DNA of 64,000 nucleotides from assembly GCA_026129405.1 (NCBI GenBank), contig JAHCID010000003.1:371257-435256 (forward strand). The letters are read 5' to 3'. Shown in pieces: positions 18,551-28,188 of the stretch. Under the pieces are notes generated by a model, which was given only the letters and a program-made list of their open reading frames with translations, did no database searches and was not told the DNA's origin. Position numbers and translations under genes: made by a program. Position 1 is the stretch's first letter. Each line of letters begins with the position of its first letter. The DNA comes from a bacterium (GTDB lineage Bacteria; Desulfobacterota; Binatia; DP-6).

Positions 18551-19117
18551 TCAGGCGAGCACGACCCGGGCTTCCGCACCGCGGCGCCCGGCGATCGCCT
18601 CCTCGGCGATGTCGAGCCACGCGAGCTCGCTGCGCAGCCGCATCTCCGTGCGGTCCAGCAGCAGGCGGGTGACGAATCCCGCGTCCGCGAGTCGCGCGCG
18701 GCGCTTGCCCAGGCGCGAGAGCCGCTGAAGATGCAGGGCGCGCTGCGCGCGGAGCACTCCCAGGAGTACCTGCGTCCGTTCGTCGGTGAGGAGGAGTAGC
18801 TTCACCGAGAGATCGTCGTTCAAGGGCGGCGGCCGATCCGTCGGCGGGCTCAGCATCCAACGCACGAGGGTGCGCTCGCCGCGCGCGGTGATCTTGAAGA
18901 CCCTCCGGTTGGGGCGCCCGGTTTGAGCCTGATCGAAGCCCTCGATCATGCGACGCGTCCTCAGGCGCTCGAGGGCGCGGTAGACCTGCCCAGGAGTCAG
19001 CGCCCAAAGGTCACGGTAGCACCCACCGAGCTCGCTCGTGATCCGATAGCCATGGATGCCGTCGGCGTTCGCCGCGATCAGTCCGAGCACTGCATGGTCC
19101 ACCGCGTCCCTCGCCAT
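18551..19117 (-). CDS. PadR family transcriptional regulator
   Basis: This 188-aa protein has the N-terminal PadR winged helix: VLGLIAANADGIHGYRIT, then a recognition region with LTPGQVYRALERL, and a wing ending FKITARGERTL. A helical C-terminal dimerisation part contains long Leu/Arg-rich helices. It probably binds an effector and represses the divergent genes. AGGAG lies 8 bases upstream of the ATG at 19117. The gene diverges from a second PadR gene across a 253-base control region. Confidence 0.88.
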   Translation of the reverse strand: MARDAVDHAVLGLIAANADGIHGYRITSELGGCYRDLWALTPGQVYRALERLRTRRMIEGFDQAQTGRPNRRVFKITARGERTLVRWMLSPPTDRPPPLNDDLSVKLLLLTDERTQVLLGVLRAQRALHLQRLSRLGKRRARLADAGFVTRLLLDRTEMRLRSELAWLDIAEEAIAGRRGAEARVVLA

Positions 19118-19153
19118 GCGTTCGCTCCTCTCACGTCCTGCGTTCGTGTTCGC

Positions 19154-19182
19154 CGGGTACGCCGGTCGGGCGCACCGGTCAA
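19154..19182 (-). promoter_or_regulatory. Predicted promoter of the minus-strand padR gene
   Basis: On the minus strand TTGACC (19182-19177) is separated by 17 bases from TACCCG (19159-19154). The -10 match is weak, but the spacing and position, some 40 bases before the ATG, fit. Confidence 0.35.
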
Positions 19183-19215
19183 TGGCGGCTCGCGCTGCAC
19201 GGCTTGCACCGAGCG

Positions 19216-19238
19216 TGTATCTAGATGCTCGAGATACA
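19216..19238. promoter_or_regulatory. Palindromic operator candidate between divergent padR genes
   Basis: A perfect 7-bp inverted repeat, TGTATCT-N9-AGATACA, stands out as an A/T-rich patch in GC-rich DNA midway between the two PadR genes. PadR proteins commonly bind dyads with outer ATGT/ACAT-like or GTAT/ATAC-like arms. The location suggests that one or both PadR proteins bind it and control both transcripts. Confidence 0.55.
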
Positions 19239-19302
19239 TGTCATCCGATGCCCGACGGAGCAGGTCCGTCGGCATGGTCAGGGCCGTGGTGCGCCGTCGG
19301 GC

Positions 19303-19332
19303 TTGACGCCTGCGGATCCGCCGCGGTAGCGA
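19303..19332 (+). promoter_or_regulatory. Predicted promoter of the padR-PKS-transporter operon
   Basis: TTGACG (19303-19308) and TAGCGA (19327-19332) are 18 bases apart. They lie about 40 bases before the second padR start, which has GAGGAGGG as its ribosome site. Confidence 0.4.
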
Positions 19333-19370
19333 GACCCACGGTCCCCAGACGCTCGTGAGGAGGGTCTCGG

Positions 19371-19967
19371 ATGCTCGCGCACCTGATTCTTGGGCTGTTG
19401 CGGAACGGCGAGCCGCGGCACGGCTACGAGCTCGTCACACACCATCGCGCGCTGACCGGAGCGACGCTCAGTACCGGGAACGTCTACCGCGAGCTGTCAC
19501 GGCTGGCGGCCAGGGAGCTGGTGCGCGCGCGTGCGGACGACTCGCGTGGCGATGGGAGGCGGATTCCCTATCAGATCACCGAGCAGGGTACGGAGCTATT
19601 CGACCAGTGGCTGCTCGCCCCGGCGAAGTACGGGGACGAGCTCGCATCGTGGCTCATCTTCATGGACCGCGTCCCGCGCGACGTTCGCGACCGTACTCTC
19701 GAGCGGGCGCGCGACATGCTCTGGTCGCAGACCAAGGCGCTCGAGCGCGCACGAGAGGACGCGTTGTCGAGGCAGCACGCGACGCGCGGACCGTACCATC
19801 CGCTGGCGGTCCTACTCTCACGACGCCTCCGGCAGGTGACGGCGGACCTCGAGTTCCTGAACGAGCTACGGGCCGACCTTGCCACCGAGAGTACGACCGC
19901 CGAGCCATCGCTCCCCGCGGCACGATCGGAACGCGCGGGGCGCGCCACCAAGGGCGCAACGCGGTAG
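19371..19967 (+). CDS. PadR family transcriptional regulator, first gene of the PKS-transporter operon
   Basis: This 198-aa PadR-like winged-helix protein reads LILGLLRNGEPRHGYEL, then STGNVYRELSRL and YQITEQGTEL. A helical C-terminal domain of about 100 residues is followed by a low-complexity tail. It differs clearly from the PadR encoded divergently at 18551-19117, so this is not a simple tandem copy. It lies 57 bases upstream of the ferritin-like gene and likely senses a substrate of the encoded transporter. GAGGAGGG precedes ATG 19371. Confidence 0.85.
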   Translation: MLAHLILGLLRNGEPRHGYELVTHHRALTGATLSTGNVYRELSRLAARELVRARADDSRGDGRRIPYQITEQGTELFDQWLLAPAKYGDELASWLIFMDRVPRDVRDRTLERARDMLWSQTKALERAREDALSRQHATRGPYHPLAVLLSRRLRQVTADLEFLNELRADLATESTTAEPSLPAARSERAGRATKGATR

Positions 19968-20024
19968 GCGGACTGGAATGCGACGGCTCAGCGGAAGACT
20001 CCGGTCGCCGGGCGGGAGGGGGAC

Positions 20025-20630
20025 GTGACGATCGATCCGCCGCTGCTGACCCTGCTCAGCTACTATCGGGATGCGGAGCTACGGGGGGCGGGATTGCTGC
20101 TACGGCTCATCGCCCTCATGCCGGACGACCCTGAGGCGCAGGTCGAGCTGACGCGACACGTGGCCGAGGAAACCCGCCATGCCTGGCTCTGGACGAAGCG
20201 CATCGTCGATCTTGGGGCCGCACCGGCTCCGATCCCGGCTGGCTATCAGAGCCGGATCGGGTTGCGAACGATCCCGCGGAGCCTCGCCGATCTCCTGGCG
20301 CTCACGATCGTCGTCGAGGAGCGTGCGCTCGCCCGCTACCAGGAGCACGCAGCCCGCCACGACGTGGATGTCGCCACGCGCAAGGTGCTCGCGGCGGTCG
20401 CGAAGGACGAGCAGTGGCACGTCGCGTGGATTCGCCGGAAGCTCACCGAGCTGACCGCGCACGACGCCACGCTCGGCGAACGGGCGGACGGCATGATGGA
20501 GCGCTACCGGCAGATCGATCGAGAGGTGTACGCCGAGCTCAGACGGGAGGAAGATATCGCCTTTGGTCGAAGTGGCCCTCCAGACGGCTACGCTGGTGGC
20601 CGGACATCCCAGCCGCGCGGAGGTGCCTGA
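20025..20630 (+). CDS. Ferritin-like diiron protein
   Basis: The 201-aa, mostly helical protein shows the ferritin-like four-helix ligand pattern: Glu18, Glu49-x2-His52 (EETRH), Glu98 or Glu99 (VVEERAL), and Glu129-x2-His132 (DEQWH). That is a complete E...ExxH...E...ExxH set for a carboxylate-bridged diiron centre. The family includes oxidases, desaturases, N-oxygenases and hydroxylases. Its place between a regulator and a transporter/PKS pair suggests a redox tailoring step rather than iron storage. GTG 20025 follows GGGAGGGGGAC. Its stop overlaps the permease start by one base. Confidence 0.75.
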   Translation: MTIDPPLLTLLSYYRDAELRGAGLLLRLIALMPDDPEAQVELTRHVAEETRHAWLWTKRIVDLGAAPAPIPAGYQSRIGLRTIPRSLADLLALTIVVEERALARYQEHAARHDVDVATRKVLAAVAKDEQWHVAWIRRKLTELTAHDATLGERADGMMERYRQIDREVYAELRREEDIAFGRSGPPDGYAGGRTSQPRGGA

Positions 20631-23206
20631 TGGCCCACGCATCGCTTCACATTCCGCTGCGCTTCCTGCGTGGGCATTACGGACGGACGACGCTCACCGT
20701 GATCGCGGTGGCGCTCGGCGTCGGGCTGGTGTGTGCGCTCGATCTCGTGACTCGCTCGATGCAACGCGCGTTCGACGAGGTCATCGACAACCTGGCCGGT
20801 CGCACGGCGCTGGAGGTGTCGGCCGGCGAATCGGGCGTCGTGCCGGAGACACTCGCATCGCAACTCCAGCGGCTGCCCGGCGTGGACATCGCCGTACCCA
20901 TCGTGCACGGGACCGCGTTCCTCGCGGACGGGAGCGGCGAGGCCCTCACCGTCCATGGGGTCGACGTCCTGAACGAGGATGCGCTGCGCGTATACGAAGC
21001 ACGCGAGCCTGGGGGGCAGACGGTCGACGATCCCGTCCGCTTCATGGCGGACCCGCGCTCGGTCATTCTCACCCGAGCCTTCGCGGCGCGCCGGGGTCTC
21101 GACGAAAACGACACGCTCGAGCTCGATACGCCCCGAGGACGCCGGCGTTTTCGGATACTTCGGCTTCTCGAGCCGACAGGCGTCGGGCGGGTCCATGGCG
21201 GCAACCTGATCGTGATGGACGTCGCCGCAGCGCAGGAGCTGTTCACCGAGCCCGAGTTCGTGAGCCGCATCGACGTCGTCGTCGATCGGTCCACCGACGT
21301 AGCCTCCGTGCGGGCGGCGATCGAGCGAACCCTTCCCCCCGGCCTCGTCGTCAGCACACCCGCGCAGCGGAAGCTCGATCTCCATGCCGTGATGCGCTCG
21401 TTCGGGACACTGCTACGCGCCATTGGACTCCTCGGAGTGCTCATCGCGTATCTGATCGCATTCAACGCGTTGTCCTCGGGTTTCGAGCGCCGCAGGTGGC
21501 AACTCGGAGTCCTGGCAGCGATTGGCGCGCCACCGCGCGCCATCTGGCTGTCCCAGATGCAAGAAGCACTGCTGCTGGCGGGTGTAAGCGTGGGTCTCGG
21601 TCTCGGCGTGGGAATGCTTCTCGCGTGGATACTCCTACCCATCATCGCCGCGACGACCGCCTTGAACTTCAATCTGGTCGCGCCACAGACGAGCCTCGTG
21701 CCGAGCCCGATCTCGTTCGCCCTCGCGACCACGCTCGGAGTCGGCGTGACGCTCCTGGCTGCGTGGCTGCCTGCAGCACGGGCGGTCCGCGCGGGCGTCG
21801 CCATGACCATTCGGGGGCGGGGTCGCGAGGCCGATCGCACCGAACTGCGCCCCGGGTGGGCCATGGCCGCGGGCCTGTGGTCAGCCGCAGGCGCCGCCGT
21901 GGTCCTGCAATCGCTCGCGGGCGAGGTGGGATTCGGTTTGCTCGCGACGGCCCTGATCGCGGCCGCGATCGCGGCGTCCGCACCGCCGTTGATCCCATTC
22001 GCCGCACGCGTCGCGCTGCCAGCTCTGGTCGCCTCAGCTGGCAGCAGCGGACGGCTTGCGGCGATGGGGCTGCGCGACCACGGCCGACGGGTCGGAATCA
22101 CCACCGCGATGCTCGCCGTCGGTCTGGGTGTCGTGGTCTGGCTAGGGGTGCTGGCCCGCAGCTTCGAAACCTCCGTGGTCGATACGCTCGGACGGGCCAT
22201 CCGGGCGGACGTCGTCGTGACGTCCGCCAACATCGGATCGGGGTTCCTCGAGGCACCGCTCGACGGGGAGCTCGTGGCCGCCGTGCGCGGCATGCCGGGG
22301 ATCGAGGACGCCGCGGGCTGGCGGGCGTTGGAGTGGCCGTACGGCGGCGAGGCGATCGGGTTGAGCGCCTACGATCCACAGTACTTCCGGAATCGACGCT
22401 TCGGTGAATGGCCGCTCGAAGAGGCAGCGGCGGGGAACGTGTGGGAGGAGGTGGCGCTCGGGCGAGGCGTCGTCGTCTCGACGAGCTTCGTCGCGTCGTT
22501 CGGACGCGGGGTCGGAACCCGAATGGTGCTCGACACGCCGACCGGACCGCTCAAGGTACCGATCGTCGGCGTGACGGTCGACTTCGTCTCCCCGAAGGGC
22601 ACGGTCGAGCTCAGTCGAGAGCTGTTCATCGAGCGCTGGCGGGACCGCACCATCACGAGGATCTTCGCCCTGAAGCGCCCCGACACGGAGACGGCCGACC
22701 TGCGACGCCGTATCGCCAGCGAGATCGGCGCCACGTACCGCCTCCGCATCCTGTCGGCGCGCGAGCTGCTCGACTACTTCGTGATCCAGGTCCGGCGCGC
22801 GTTCTCGGTTATCCCCGTATTCGCCGCGGCCATCTATGTGGTGATCCTGATCGGACTCGCCAGCTCGTTGATCACGTCCGTCCTCGATCGCCAGCGCGAG
22901 CTGGCGATCGTGCAGGTCATCGGGTTGCGGCGGCGGCTGGCCCGGCGGGTGGTGGTCCTCGAAAGCCTCGTCGTCGGTGTCGTCGGGCTCGTGCTCGCCG
23001 CCGTGGGCGGGCTCGCGCTCTCGGCTCTCTGGGTCGGACGCACCTTTCAGCTCCTCCTTGGGTGGACGCTCCATCTCAGCGTGCCCGCGGCGCATCTCGC
23101 TCTGGTCGCGGGCGCGGGCGTTCTGGTGTGTGTCGTCGCCTCGGTGATCCCGGCGCGGCGCGTGGGGCACCTCGGGGTATCCGAGGCGCTCCGCCATGAA
23201 TCGTGA
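20630..23206 (+). CDS. FtsX/MacB-type ABC transporter permease
   Basis: The 858-aa permease has one N-terminal helix, a periplasmic MacB_PCD-like domain, and a first FtsX module with three helices (about residues 265-400). An internal pair of helices, a second periplasmic domain and a second FtsX module (about 720-850) follow. The cytoplasmic coupling segments ERRRWQLGVLAAIGA and RQRELAIVQVIGLRR are diagnostic of this class. Such permeases use ATP from a LolD/MacB-like subunit to move or release lipids, lipoproteins or small molecules rather than to pump across a pore. The ATPase is encoded two genes downstream with the polyketide synthase in between. Confidence 0.88.
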   Translation: MAHASLHIPLRFLRGHYGRTTLTVIAVALGVGLVCALDLVTRSMQRAFDEVIDNLAGRTALEVSAGESGVVPETLASQLQRLPGVDIAVPIVHGTAFLADGSGEALTVHGVDVLNEDALRVYEAREPGGQTVDDPVRFMADPRSVILTRAFAARRGLDENDTLELDTPRGRRRFRILRLLEPTGVGRVHGGNLIVMDVAAAQELFTEPEFVSRIDVVVDRSTDVASVRAAIERTLPPGLVVSTPAQRKLDLHAVMRSFGTLLRAIGLLGVLIAYLIAFNALSSGFERRRWQLGVLAAIGAPPRAIWLSQMQEALLLAGVSVGLGLGVGMLLAWILLPIIAATTALNFNLVAPQTSLVPSPISFALATTLGVGVTLLAAWLPAARAVRAGVAMTIRGRGREADRTELRPGWAMAAGLWSAAGAAVVLQSLAGEVGFGLLATALIAAAIAASAPPLIPFAARVALPALVASAGSSGRLAAMGLRDHGRRVGITTAMLAVGLGVVVWLGVLARSFETSVVDTLGRAIRADVVVTSANIGSGFLEAPLDGELVAAVRGMPGIEDAAGWRALEWPYGGEAIGLSAYDPQYFRNRRFGEWPLEEAAAGNVWEEVALGRGVVVSTSFVASFGRGVGTRMVLDTPTGPLKVPIVGVTVDFVSPKGTVELSRELFIERWRDRTITRIFALKRPDTETADLRRRIASEIGATYRLRILSARELLDYFVIQVRRAFSVIPVFAAAIYVVILIGLASSLITSVLDRQRELAIVQVIGLRRRLARRVVVLESLVVGVVGLVLAAVGGLALSALWVGRTFQLLLGWTLHLSVPAAHLALVAGAGVLVCVVASVIPARRVGHLGVSEALRHES

Positions 23207-23235
23207 CGACATTCGCGATGCGAAGGGAGGCCAGG

Positions 23236-24309
23236 ATGGTCCGTATCGGCTGCGTATCGTCGGTGGTGGCCGGGCACGAGGTGCGCATCGACGCCATGCG
23301 CGAGTTCCTCGCAGCGCAGACGGGATCGGCGACTGGTACGCGTGTGCGCCGCGCCCTCGCGGCGGCCGGAAGCCCCACGCGCTTCAGCGTCCTACCCCTG
23401 GACGAGCTTGCCCGGCTCGGCGACGCCGGTGAGCGGAGCGAGCTCTATCGAAGACATGCCATCGCGCTGGCCGAGCGCGCGGTGGCTGGCATCGTAGACC
23501 TGGATGCGCTACGCCCCGAGACCGTCTCGACGCTCGTCTTCGTGTCGAGCACGGGTTGGAGCGCGCCGTCTATCGACGCCCACCTGGTACGTCGCTTCGG
23601 CATCGCCCCCCATTGCCGGCGTATCCCGCTGGCTCAGCTCGGATGCGGCGGCGGGGTTGCGGCGCTCTCGCTTGCCGCAGAGATCGTCCGTCGTGATCCG
23701 ACGGAACGGGTCCTGGTGGTGAGCGCGGAGGTGCCGTCCCTCCAGCTGCAGCTCGCGGAGCCGTCCTATCCGGAGCTGCTCGCTGCCGCCCAGTTCGGGG
23801 ATGGAGCCGGTGCGGCGGTCGTTTCCCGCGACGAGGGCGGCTGCGAGGTGCTCGGCACGCGCAGCGTCCTTCTCGCCGAGCACGAGGAGGGGGGGCGCAT
23901 CGTTCCTTCTGCGACCGGCCTCCGGCTGGTTCCGTCCGCCGGACTCCCGCGGGTCATCCGCTCCCGGGTACGGCGGCTCGTCGCCGACTGCGCTCGAGCC
24001 AGCGACGTCGACGAAGCCGCGCCGGCATTCGTCATCGCCCATCCCCGAGGGGCCGCGGTGCTGCAGGCGGTGGCATCCGGGCTGGATGTGGAGCGAAACG
24101 CCATGGGCGCCTCCTGGGCGGCCTGGGAGGCCTCCGGCAACATGGTATCCGCCAGCGTCTTTAGAGCGCTGGCCGAGGTCGACCGCACGGGAACGGCGAG
24201 GGAGGGCGACGTCGGGATGATGCTGGCATTCGGCACCGGAGTGGCCTGCGAGCTGGCGGCGATCCGTTGGCATTCCCCCCTGCGCGTAGCGGAGTCGCAG
24301 TGCGGATGA
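23236..24309 (+). CDS. Type III polyketide synthase (chalcone/stilbene synthase-like)
   Basis: The 357-aa ketosynthase has the full type III triad: Cys137 in QLGCGGG, His269 in IAHPRG and Asn302 in SGNMVSAS. The His-Asn spacing of 33 equals that of plant chalcone synthase. The TGWSAPSIDAHLVRRF segment is typical of the family. The C-terminal GFGPG loop is altered to AFGTGVACE. It should condense an acyl-CoA starter with malonyl-CoA to a small pyrone, resorcinol or alkyl-phenol. Starter choice cannot be read here. ATG 23236 was chosen for GGGAGG just upstream; GTG 23203 overlaps the permease stop. It is unusual to find it between the two subunit genes of an ABC transporter. Confidence 0.85.
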   Translation: MVRIGCVSSVVAGHEVRIDAMREFLAAQTGSATGTRVRRALAAAGSPTRFSVLPLDELARLGDAGERSELYRRHAIALAERAVAGIVDLDALRPETVSTLVFVSSTGWSAPSIDAHLVRRFGIAPHCRRIPLAQLGCGGGVAALSLAAEIVRRDPTERVLVVSAEVPSLQLQLAEPSYPELLAAAQFGDGAGAAVVSRDEGGCEVLGTRSVLLAEHEEGGRIVPSATGLRLVPSAGLPRVIRSRVRRLVADCARASDVDEAAPAFVIAHPRGAAVLQAVASGLDVERNAMGASWAAWEASGNMVSASVFRALAEVDRTGTAREGDVGMMLAFGTGVACELAAIRWHSPLRVAESQCG

Positions 24310-25040
24310 CCGACCCGATCGTTCTCGTCGACGGCGTCACCAAACGCCACGGTGAGGGTCATCGCGCCATCGAGGCCCTGCGGGGCGTATCCTTCAGCGT
24401 CGAGCGGGGGCGGTTCGTGTCGGTTACGGGACCGAGCGGGTGCGGCAAGACCACGCTCTTGCACATCCTCGCTGGCATCGATCAGCCGACGACCGGGCGC
24501 GTCACGGTGGCGGGCCACGACCTCGGCACGCTCGGCGCCGATGCGCGGAGCGATCTTCGGCTGCGACAGATCGGCTTCGTCTTTCAGGCTTCGAACCTGT
24601 TGCCCAGCTTCACGGCTCTCGAGAACGTCGCCGTCCCGCTGGAGTTCCAGGGTGTACGCTGGCGGGAAGCACGGCAGCGCGCCGCGGCCGTGCTGGAAAG
24701 CGTCGGAATTCCGGTCCCCGCGCACGCGCGCCTTCCCTCCGACCTGTCCGGAGGCGAGCAGCAGCGAGTGGCGATCGCGCGCGCGATCATCGGCCGCCCC
24801 GCGCTCCTGCTCGCGGACGAGCCGACCGGCAATCTCGACTCGGTCACGGGGCGCCGGATCCTGGATCTGCTGAGCGAGCTGAACCGGTCGGAGGGCGTGA
24901 CCATCATCATGGTGACCCACAGCGTGCTCGCCGGCAGCTATGGCGACCGGACCCTCGTGCTGGAGGACGGCCGGGTCGTCCGCGACGTCAGCGCGCCGTC
25001 GCCGACCCACCTGCGCAGCGTAGCGGCGGACGAGAGCTGA
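24306..25040 (+). CDS. ABC transporter ATP-binding protein (LolD/MacB type)
   Basis: This 244-aa ATPase has Walker A GPSGCGKTT, Q-loop VFQASNLLP, signature LSGGEQQRVAIARA, Walker B LLLADEPTGNLD and switch His in VTHS. NLLPSFTALENV is typical of the MacB/LolD/FtsE branch. It partners the FtsX-like permease at 20630-23206. ATG 24306 overlaps the PKS stop (ATGA), which ties its synthesis to that of the polyketide synthase. It is the last gene of the operon. Confidence 0.92.
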   Translation: MTDPIVLVDGVTKRHGEGHRAIEALRGVSFSVERGRFVSVTGPSGCGKTTLLHILAGIDQPTTGRVTVAGHDLGTLGADARSDLRLRQIGFVFQASNLLPSFTALENVAVPLEFQGVRWREARQRAAAVLESVGIPVPAHARLPSDLSGGEQQRVAIARAIIGRPALLLADEPTGNLDSVTGRRILDLLSELNRSEGVTIIMVTHSVLAGSYGDRTLVLEDGRVVRDVSAPSPTHLRSVAADES

Positions 25041-25061
25041 CGATCGGCCGCCGCGGCGCCG

Positions 25062-25075
25062 GGGGCCGTAGCCCC
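25062..25075 (+). terminator. Short GC hairpin after the PKS-transporter operon
   Basis: GGGGC-cgta-GCCCC forms a 5-bp stem with a 4-base loop some 20 bases after the operon. No T-tract follows, so termination is uncertain. Confidence 0.25.
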
Positions 25076-25134
25076 GACGCGGCGGCGGCGACCCCCACCG
25101 CTCGACTGGGACAGGGCCCGCGATCCGCGGTCGG

Positions 25135-25164
25135 TTGTGCGGGCCGGAAGCCCATGTGTAGAGT
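25135..25164 (+). promoter_or_regulatory. Predicted promoter of the MoxR-VWA operon
   Basis: TTGTGC and TAGAGT are separated by 18 bases. Transcription would start near 25171, leaving GCGGAGGGG as the ribosome site for GTG 25189. Confidence 0.45.
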
Positions 25165-25188
25165 CCCCCCGCGGAGGGGCCAGAGATC

Positions 25189-26595
25189 GTGCGAGACTCC
25201 AACCGGCCGGGCACGCTCGGCGAGCTTAGGGCCTCCGGCTACGTCGTCCGGCCGGTGCGCGAGGAGATGCGGCGCAACCTGCTCGCCAAGCTCCAGAGCG
25301 GCGAGCGCTTCCTGCCCGGGATCGTCGGCTACGACGACAGCGTCATCCCGGAGATCGAGAACGCCATCCTCGCCGGCCACCACATCGTGTTCCTGGGCGA
25401 GCGCGGGCAGGGGAAGAGCCGCATCATCCGCGGGCTCGTCGGGTTGCTCGACGAGGCGGTGCCCGCCATCGCCGGGTGCGCGATCCAGGACGACCCGACG
25501 GCGCCCATCTGCGCGGCGTGCAAGCGGCGTGCGGCCGACGAGGGCGACGCGCTGCCGATCGCGTGGACCCCGCGCCACCAGCGCTACGGCGAGAAGCTCG
25601 CAACGCCCGACGTCTCCATGGCCGACCTCATCGGCGAGATCGATCCGGTGAAGGTGGCCGAGGGGCGCTATCTCGCCGACGAGGAGACGATCCACTACGG
25701 CATCATCCCGCGCACGAATCGCGGGCTCTTCGCCATCAACGAGCTGCCCGACCTGACGGAGAAGGTCCAGGTCGGGCTGTTCAACCTGATGGAGGAGAAG
25801 GACGTCCAGATCAAAGGCTTCAAGATCCGCCTGCCGCTCGACGTCGTCATCGTCGCCAGCGCGAACCCCGAGGACTACACCAGCCGCGGGCGCATCATCA
25901 CGCCGCTGAAGGACCGCTTCGACGTGCAGGTGCGCACGCACTACCCGCGCACGCTCGAGGACGAGATCGCGATCATGGAGCAGGAGGTCGCGGTCGGGGA
26001 GCGCGTCGGGCGCGAGGTCCGCGTGCCGCCGTTCATGCGCGAGATCGTGGCCCAGCTCACCTTCGAGGCGCGGCAGTCGAACGAGATCAACCAGGCGTCG
26101 GGCGTCAGCGTGCGCGTCAGCATCAACAACTACGAGACGCTGCTCGCGAACGCCGAGAAGCGCGCGGTGCGGACGGGCGAGCGCGAGATCGTGCCGCGGC
26201 CGACCGACCTGCCGGCGGTCGTCGCGTCGACGGCGGGCAAGATCGAGCTCGAGTACGGCGGCGAGGACAAGCGCGAGGAGGACCTCCTCGATCGGCTCGT
26301 GAACCGCGCCGTGCTCAAGGTGTGGGACGGCTACCTCGGCACCGAGGCGTGCGGGCGCGTCATCGAGCACTTCGAGTCGGGGTGGGGCGTCGAGGTGTCC
26401 GACCGCATGGCGTCGGAGGACTACCGCGAGGGCGTGCAGAAGATCCCGGGCCTGCGCGAGGCCGTCGAGCGGCTCGGGCCGTTCGAGAGCCCGGGGCTCA
26501 CCGCCGCGGCGATCGAGTTCGTGCTCGAGGGCCTGCACCTCCACCAGAAGCTCAACAAGGACCGCCAGGGCGGCCGGTGGTCGTATCGCGCCTGA
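25189..26595 (+). CDS. MoxR/magnesium-chelatase-like AAA+ ATPase
   Basis: This 468-aa AAA+ protein has Walker A GERGQGKS (residues 70-77). The Walker B region reads GLFAINELPDL, with Asn where the usual Asp stands before Glu; related proteins share the NELPDL form, so it may still bind ATP. A short Cys pair motif (ICAACKRR) near residue 105 could bind metal. The C-terminal lid and a helical extension follow. The partner gene 3 bases downstream encodes a VWA protein, the classic MoxR-VWA pairing used as a chaperone that inserts cofactors or remodels complexes. The target is not evident. Confidence 0.82.
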   Translation: MRDSNRPGTLGELRASGYVVRPVREEMRRNLLAKLQSGERFLPGIVGYDDSVIPEIENAILAGHHIVFLGERGQGKSRIIRGLVGLLDEAVPAIAGCAIQDDPTAPICAACKRRAADEGDALPIAWTPRHQRYGEKLATPDVSMADLIGEIDPVKVAEGRYLADEETIHYGIIPRTNRGLFAINELPDLTEKVQVGLFNLMEEKDVQIKGFKIRLPLDVVIVASANPEDYTSRGRIITPLKDRFDVQVRTHYPRTLEDEIAIMEQEVAVGERVGREVRVPPFMREIVAQLTFEARQSNEINQASGVSVRVSINNYETLLANAEKRAVRTGEREIVPRPTDLPAVVASTAGKIELEYGGEDKREEDLLDRLVNRAVLKVWDGYLGTEACGRVIEHFESGWGVEVSDRMASEDYREGVQKIPGLREAVERLGPFESPGLTAAAIEFVLEGLHLHQKLNKDRQGGRWSYRA

Positions 26596-26598
26596 GCG

Positions 26599-28188
26599 AT
26601 GCACGTCGTTCGCTACACCGCCTGGGACGGCACGCAGCAGGTCCGGCTGACGGCCGAGCAGGTCTTCGACAAGCTCGCCGAGTACCTCTCCTTCACCGAC
26701 GACGTGCAGCAGGCCCTCGACTGGCTGCTGCATCAGGGCCTCGACTGGGAGGGCGTCCGCGTCCTCGGCCTCGACGACTTCCTGGAGCGGCTGCGCGAGG
26801 CCATGCGCAGCCGCTACCGCGAGGTCAACGTCCGCGACGCCCTCTCGGGTCTCGAAGAGAAGCTCGACGAGCTGCTCGACCTGGAGCGCGAGGCGCTCGA
26901 CGGCCAGGGCGACGCCGACCGGGCCGCCGCGCAGAAGGCGCGTCTCGACCGGCTGCCGCCGCGGCTCTCCGAGGGGCTCGAGCGTCTCGCCGACTACGAC
27001 TTCACCGACCCCGACGCCCGCGCCGCCTACGAGGAGCTGCGCGACGAGCTGGACCAGATCAGGAAGCTCGAGGACTTCCAGCGCCGCTACGGCGACCTCT
27101 TCCACGGCCCGCGCTCGCTCGACTTCGAGGAGGCGCTCGAGCTGATGGAGGAGATGGAGCGCTGGAAGGCGCTCGAGGAGCAGCTGCTGTCGGGCGAGCT
27201 CGGCGGCGTCGACATGGACGCGCTCGCGGCGCTCCTCGGCCAGGACGCGTTGCGCAGCTTCCAGCTCCTGCGCGACGTCATGGAGACGATCGCGAAGTCG
27301 GGCTACGTCGTGCAGCGCGAGGGCAAGGCGCAGCTCTCGCCGCGCGGCGTGCGCAAGCTGGGACAGCTCGCGCTGCGCGACATCTACCAGGGGCTCCTGC
27401 GCGACAAGCCCGGCGGGCATGCGACCGACCACCGCGGCGCCGTCCTGCCGCGGCCCGACGAGACGCGCCCGTACCGCACCGGCGAGCCGCTCGACCTGCA
27501 CCTCATGGGCACGCTCAAGAACGCGCTCCGCCGCGCGCCGCGGACGCCGCTCGAGCTGGTGCCGTCGGACTTCGAGGTGCACGCCACCGACCAGACGGCG
27601 TCGAGCTCCACGGTGCTGCTCCTCGACATGAGCTGGTCGATGTCGTGGGAGGGCCGCTTCGCGGCGGCGAAGCGCGTGGCGCTGGCGCTGGAGAGCCTCA
27701 TCCGCTCGAAGTACCCGCGCGACTACTTCGCCATCGTCGGGTTCTTCACGCGCGCCGTCGAGCTGAAGCTGCGCGACCTGCCCGAAGCCAGCTGGAACAT
27801 GGGCGACCCGTTCACGAACCTGCAGGACGGGCTGCGCCTCGCCGCGGAGCTGCTGTCGCGGCATCCGAGCAACAACCAGCACGTGATCGTCATCACCGAC
27901 GGGCAGCCCACGGCCTACTTCCTGAAGGGGCGGCTCTACTGCGAGTGGCCGCTGTCGTTCGGCGGCATCAGCATGCGCGCGGCGCAGGAGACGCTGAAGG
28001 AGGTCGAGCGCGTCACCCGGCGCGGCATCACCATCAACACCTTCATGCTCGACGACAGCCCGAGCCTGCGCGCCTTCGTCGAGCGCATGACGCGCATCAA
28101 CAAGGGCCGCGCCCTCTACACGCGGCCGGACCGGCTGGGGCAGTACCTGCTCGTCGACTACCTCGCCAAAAAGAAGAAGCGGGTATGA
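26599..28188 (+). CDS. VWA domain protein paired with the MoxR-type ATPase
   Basis: The 529-aa cytoplasmic protein has a long, charged, helical N-terminal half (Glu/Arg/Leu-rich, about residues 1-320). A von Willebrand A domain follows with a complete MIDAS: DMSWSMSW (D-x-S-x-S), a Thr in PFTNLQDG and VITDGQPT. There is no signal peptide or membrane segment. It would bind the AAA+ partner through its VWA domain and recruit the client through the N-terminal half. It is probably translated from the same mRNA as the ATPase gene. Confidence 0.82.
   Translation: MHVVRYTAWDGTQQVRLTAEQVFDKLAEYLSFTDDVQQALDWLLHQGLDWEGVRVLGLDDFLERLREAMRSRYREVNVRDALSGLEEKLDELLDLEREALDGQGDADRAAAQKARLDRLPPRLSEGLERLADYDFTDPDARAAYEELRDELDQIRKLEDFQRRYGDLFHGPRSLDFEEALELMEEMERWKALEEQLLSGELGGVDMDALAALLGQDALRSFQLLRDVMETIAKSGYVVQREGKAQLSPRGVRKLGQLALRDIYQGLLRDKPGGHATDHRGAVLPRPDETRPYRTGEPLDLHLMGTLKNALRRAPRTPLELVPSDFEVHATDQTASSSTVLLLDMSWSMSWEGRFAAAKRVALALESLIRSKYPRDYFAIVGFFTRAVELKLRDLPEASWNMGDPFTNLQDGLRLAAELLSRHPSNNQHVIVITDGQPTAYFLKGRLYCEWPLSFGGISMRAAQETLKEVERVTRRGITINTFMLDDSPSLRAFVERMTRINKGRALYTRPDRLGQYLLVDYLAKKKKRV

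Follow-up and report, generated by a model that had tools for sequence, protein, structure and literature searches.

The window analysed here, a stretch of 64,000 nucleotides, belongs to a 5.6-Mb genome of the uncultured class Binatia, which is represented in this work by a class-wide sample of 148 genomes. Between positions 19371 and 25040, and all on the forward strand, it carries the genes for a PadR-family regulator, a diiron protein, a permease, a type III polyketide synthase (PKS) and an ABC ATPase (Table 1). This order and the assignment of the five families, proposed in an earlier note made from the DNA alone, are borne out by the open reading frames, by Pfam and NCBIfam searches and by the DNA itself. 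The PKS gene lies between the genes for the two transporter subunits, as that note also stated, and the same placement is found in five loci altogether, in one of them with the PKS on the opposite strand.

Table 1. Features of the PKS-transporter operon and its upstream region (positions in the window)
Feature	Position	Strand	Evidence or remark
Second PadR-family gene, divergent from the operon	18551..19117	-	PF03551 53.1 bits; Vir_act_alpha_C 31.3 bits
Candidate operator TGTATCT-N9-AGATACA	19216..19238		Sits between both PadR genes
PadR-family regulator, first gene of the operon	19371..19967	+	Pfam PF03551 49.6 bits
Ferritin-like diiron protein	20025..20630	+	Ferritin PF00210 slightly below cut-off
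Double-FtsX permease, 858 aa	20630..23206	+	Two MacB_PCD and two FtsX domains (Pfam); YbbP-like predicted fold
Type III PKS	23203..24309 (probable true start 23236)	+	PF00195 66.5 bits
ABC ATPase, LolD/YbbA-like	24306..25040	+	PF00005 122 bits

The genes were also said to be joined by 1- and 4-base overlaps, which is correct for the diiron and permease genes (1 base, TGATG) and for the PKS and ATPase genes (4 bases, ATGA), while the permease and PKS genes overlap only if the PKS starts at the GTG at 23203. The ATG at 23236 is preceded by a good ribosome site, AAGGGAGG, and agrees with the start in relatives. It is probably the true start, and it leaves a 29-base gap behind the permease gene. 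Just downstream of the operon, at 25189-28188, lie genes for an AAA ATPase (Mg-chelatase-like) and a VWA-domain protein, a usual MoxR/VWA-type pair without link to the PKS-transporter finding.

Distribution of the PKS-transporter pairing in Binatia

When the window PKS was used as a query against 98 related genomes, 37 gave matches, the best-scoring of which adjoin homologs of the window permease and ATPase. The same permease family adjoins ten PKS loci in nine genomes from five families (f1, f6, f7, f11 and f15), and a contig split in genome G056 (loci L051 and L061) is consistent with one further paired locus. Placed by tblastn, the genes run PadR-permease-PKS-ATPase in L034, L035 and L041, permease-PKS in L038, where an ATPase gene was not found in 17 kb, and permease-PKS-ATPase with the PKS on the other strand in L039. 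The permease and ATPase genes are followed by the PKS in L036, by a convergent PKS in L037 and L062, and by a Fic gene and then a PKS on the opposite strand in L040. In the PKS tree (35 sequences, 34 from Binatia), the ten transporter-linked sequences form one clade (support 100/100), a clustering equalled in 0 of 500 label shuffles.

Broader searches returned little else. Across the 148 genomes of the class, nothing further scored above the known paired loci; a phylum-wide PKS search, with shallow scoring per genome, gave matches only in Binatia and in one distant genome; and a profile search of genome contigs with three close sequences recovered two loci, both already known. Because the pairing recurs in nine genomes and its PKSs form one clade, it is more than chance, and the link between PKS and transporter extends beyond the window locus.

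Close permease homologs without a PKS are common, including those of L055-L058 and of L064, which is accompanied by PadR and lies in the window's own genome, so the transporter is not dependent on the PKS. The permease tree does not separate a single origin of the PKS association from its repeated loss. These PKS-free permeases, together with the variable order and strand of the PKS and the intervening Fic gene in L040, are what would be expected if the PKS were a passenger gene, adjacent to the transporter without a function in it. This explanation is largely refuted by the recurrence in nine genomes, five families and one PKS clade, and we find it barely conceivable.

Other arrangements of PKS and transporter genes are also present in the class. 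In Binatia family f5 (L046, L047, L048 and L052), a separate PKS clade is found in clusters where the PKS gene is followed by those for an ICMT methyltransferase, a single FtsX permease and an ATPase; here a type III PKS is paired a second time with a type VII transporter. A third kind of cluster, in L045 (7577-11974), comprises genes for a PKS, an FAD monooxygenase-like protein, an ABC ATPase and an ABC-2 permease. Locus L068 (4262-12232) is a PadR-permease-ATPase-permease array, with both permease genes split across several frames.

The polyketide synthase

The window PKS scores above the Pfam cut-offs for both PF00195 and PF02797. Its triad, C148/H280/N313 when numbered from 23203 and Cys137/His269/Asn302 when counted from the ATG at 23236, occupies columns that are invariant or nearly so in the alignment of the 35 PKSs. 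The predicted structure (pLDDT 92) has a regular type III PKS fold, with 4jao as the best match. By sequence, the nearest solved type III PKS is PKS11 of Mycobacterium tuberculosis (130 bits, with an identity of ~29%), whose fold is also the nearest to the model (TM 0.86-0.90), and PKS18 of the same species is also among the nearest folds. PKS11 is an alkylpyrone synthase, as is PKS18, and we know of no pairing of either with a type VII transporter. The window genome has one clear type III PKS, two other matches falling below the family cut-off, and plasmid-borne PKS homologs are <35% identical among the matches listed. A DpgA identity was rejected at 89.2 of 425 bits, below the NCBIfam equivalog cut-off.

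Two features depart from the family pattern. The GFGPG loop reads GTG in the window PKS and GAG in L034 and L035, against GPG in the remaining rows of the alignment, and the position mapped here to CHS Thr197 is Gln in the window PKS and Gln, Trp, Cys or Gly across the transporter-linked clade, where the other PKSs, with one exception, have Thr. The earlier statement that all catalytic residues are intact therefore stands for Cys, His and Asn but not for the loop or the mapped Thr197. As the domains, the fold and the triad are all those of a type III PKS, we treat the loop change as probable divergence within the family.

How far this divergence has gone bears on what the protein does. Of 64 class-conserved positions, defined on the 25 other PKSs, 38-48% are altered in the members that share an operon with the permease, compared with 23-30% in the rest of the transporter-linked clade, and the sequences of the window, L034 and L035 sit on a long branch of the PKS tree. 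In two relatives within the clade, L038 (7870-8949) and L041 (6969-8027), His280 is replaced by Asn. The dN/dS of the PKS is 0.23 between L034 and L035, where neighbouring genes give 0.13-0.15; the gene remains under purifying selection. The divergence of the operon-type members, the GTG/GAG loop and the loss of His in L038 and L041 keep repurposing alive as a rival explanation, in which the former synthase, where it shares an operon with the permease, would no longer be a normal synthase and would now load or gate the ABC machine, be it by binding acyl-CoA, as an acyltransferase or as a sensor. The long branch leading to the window, L034 and L035 would also fit. However, the window copy retains Cys, His and Asn as well as a confident PKS fold, and the divergence may also mean a new substrate; we consider such repurposing unlikely. 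A more specific proposal, that the operon-type PKS fold serves as a new sort of partner of the type VII ABC transporter in the cytoplasm, handing its product straight to the permease or gating it, with one branch having moved past normal condensation after losing the catalytic His, appears to us doubtful, a little more so than repurposing in general.

The transporter, its regulator and its neighbours

The AlphaFold model of the permease (pLDDT 79) has its best fold match in Escherichia coli YbbP (9ge6_A; Foldseek E 1.7e-21; Z 24.6 over 720 residues at 5.6 A). The fold additionally matches MacB and BceAB; in the VIA-align list, most rows span just the N-terminal half of the permease, YbbP and BceAB being the full-length matches. 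Sequence homology between the permease and YbbP is undetectable, the best blastp E being 0.4 and the hhalign probability 0.5%. For the ATPase, identity to E. coli YbbA is 46%, and Walker A, LSGGE and Walker B are all present, so that the ABC motifs are intact, as first noted. In NCBIfam, the permease reaches 65.9 of 362 bits for lolCE, and the LolD score likewise lies below its cut-off.

The function of this transporter family is suggested chiefly by its neighbours. A LolA_like gene precedes the permease in L056, L057 and L063, LolA_like and DUF1302 genes lie just upstream in L034 and L035, and a DUF1302-like gene lies just downstream in L041. In four loci from other classes of the phylum (L127, L128, L131 and L132), the genes are collinear in the order ATPase, permease, LolA_like and DUF1302-like, with PadR in L127 and L131; the DUF1302 assignment in several of the loci comes from BLAST alone. 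This sister-class operon looks like an uncharacterised Lol-like, inner-to-outer-membrane route for hydrophobic molecules, and it is mainly on account of such neighbours that we read the transporter family as a route for hydrophobic compounds or lipids to the outer membrane. The window operon differs in that Pfam found neither a LolA_like nor a DUF1302 gene beside it (18551 to 28188), and the LolA_like matches of the window genome, among the matches listed, all lie outside the window.

In L034, L035, L037, L040 and L041, as well as in the PKS-free L058, the permease operon begins with a PadR homolog, and PadR is common to these transporters with or without a PKS. In L037, a PadR that is 28% identical to the second PadR of the window is divergent from the PKS; the second window PadR, on which the earlier note is silent, is a possible co-regulator. 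The palindrome between the two padR genes is a unique site within the window and was not matched upstream of the padR genes of relatives; as a putative PadR operator, it is a lead only.

PadR control of PKS-free transporters and the fold matches to MacB and BceAB would fit efflux or self-protection, in which PadR would induce the removal of a bioactive small polyketide made by the PKS (a signal or antibiotic) or the protection of the membrane from it, without outer-membrane delivery. This seems improbable to us, as neither a MacA nor a TolC gene was identified in the window operon and the LolA_like/DUF1302 company, though compatible with efflux, points to passage into or across the outer membrane.

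The diiron protein

In the translation of the diiron gene, a complete ligand set (E, ExxH, E, ExxH; assignment made here) is present, and the earlier reading of intact ExxH pairs is confirmed. AurF and COQ7 identities were rejected, both falling below cut-off. The gene is absent from every other PKS-transporter locus examined. Its homologs are found in 100 of the 148 Binatia genomes, mostly at 45-67% identity, and none of the 20 neighbourhoods examined contains this PKS or the permease. In many of these, the gene adjoins lipid A acyltransferase genes or has them on both sides, with a DAHP-synthase-family gene (taken to be KdsA) and an SIS/CBS gene (taken to be KdsD) upstream of it; L080-L086 and L089 illustrate this class-wide setting amid lipid A acyltransferase, KdsA-like and KdsD-like genes. 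The family perhaps functions in the modification of lipid A or of acyl chains. In the window genome, the three acyltransferase loci that were read have no diiron gene, and the simplest reading is that an LPS-linked diiron gene was relocated into the window operon.

The diiron gene is thus physically in the operon but outside the conserved system. A conserved co-occurrence of all five families, as first envisaged, reduces to a PKS kept beside the transporter, the diiron gene not being kept. The 1-base overlap with the permease gene and the complete ligand set would favour the full pathway originally imagined, in which oxidation of the PKS product by the diiron enzyme would be a constant step ahead of transport. 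Its absence from the other PKS-transporter loci, and the frequent location of its orthologs in LPS clusters, among Kdo and lipid A acyltransferase genes, speak against the diiron enzyme as a pathway step, and we judge the full pathway very unlikely.

A proposed mechanism

The reading we prefer, and to which we give an even chance, is a PadR-controlled type VII ABC system whose own PKS makes a membrane-soluble polyketide lipid, which the transporter extracts toward the outer membrane. In the cytoplasm, the type III PKS would extend an acyl-CoA starter with malonyl units, and the product would be a membrane-partitioning lipid of the alkyl-pyrone or alkyl-resorcinol type. The type VII ABC machine, with its YbbP-like predicted fold, would then extract this lipid, presumably toward the outer membrane and with the help of a carrier, none being encoded beside the operon. 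PadR would control the operon in response to a putative ligand, and the diiron protein, locally recruited, may tailor the lipid while being dispensable for the core. The original model of a transporter coupled to a PKS-made lipid gains from the conserved pairing, the YbbP fold, the likeness to PKS11 and the LolA_like/DUF1302 company, and loses its diiron step. The second PKS-transporter pairing in family f5 and the purifying selection on the PKS also favour the preferred reading; the eroded motifs of the operon-type PKSs, the His lost in L038 and L041, the many PKS-free permeases and the missing LolA_like and DUF1302 genes beside the window operon weigh against it. The product is probably an alkyl-pyrone or phenolic lipid.

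Comparison with described systems

E. coli YbbAP has been proposed to extract hydrophobic molecules (PMC12646458), a principle that the window system probably shares. Both combine a fused double permease with a separate ATPase, the permease matches YbbP best in fold, and the ATPase is close to YbbA. In contrast to YbbAP-TesA, however, the enzyme here is a PKS that shows no evident signal peptide, where TesA is a periplasmic hydrolase, and no TesA homolog was found in the searched relatives' loci at E 1e-3 or, by Pfam, among the genes of the window operon. Given this and the lack of detectable sequence homology to YbbP, the system is not classed as YbbAP-TesA. With LolCDE-LolA it has in common a type VII ABC transporter, a LolD-like ATPase and LolA-like carriers near members of the permease family, but it has one fused permease in place of LolC and LolE, and its LolCE and LolD scores are far under the cut-offs. 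The monoterpene exporter AmeABCD includes an outer-membrane protein of the DUF1302 kind and a periplasmic one of the LolA superfamily (PMC6394551), a combination that recalls the loci of the relatives described here; its inner-membrane pump is an HAE3 RND protein, whereas here it is an ABC transporter.

Among type III PKS operons, the srs cluster is presumably comparable and probably lipid-making. The hid and planctomycete alkylresorcinol operons carry methyltransferase and oxidoreductase genes (PMC10896814). Like all of these, the window operon is a type III PKS operon, probably for a lipid; unlike them, it includes a type VII transporter and, by Pfam, neither a methyltransferase nor an oxidoreductase, the diiron protein being its sole candidate oxidoreductase. 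Published type III PKS clusters have methyltransferase and oxidoreductase neighbours and RND, MFS or ABC transporters, and the main text of the Binatota genome paper (PMC8262859) is silent on polyketides. Within the literature searched, whose coverage was incomplete, a type III PKS paired with a type VII transporter was not found, and the earlier impression that no system of such composition has been described still holds there.

Implications for lipid export

Type VII ABC transporters are known to work with periplasmic or membrane partners, including LolA, EnvC, MacA, TesA and BceS. With a cytoplasmic enzyme for lipid synthesis as the conserved partner, production of a polyketide lipid would be tied to its extraction from the membrane. 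The constant position of this PKS clade beside the transporter genes, and often between them, suggests a lipid whose synthesis and export belong together as a unit. To our knowledge, there is no established machine for the passage of alkylpyrones or alkylresorcinols to the outer membrane, and the pairing would bear on how these compounds reach it. A Lol-like route for non-protein lipids has a concrete candidate in the ATPase-permease-LolA_like-DUF1302 operon of the sister classes.
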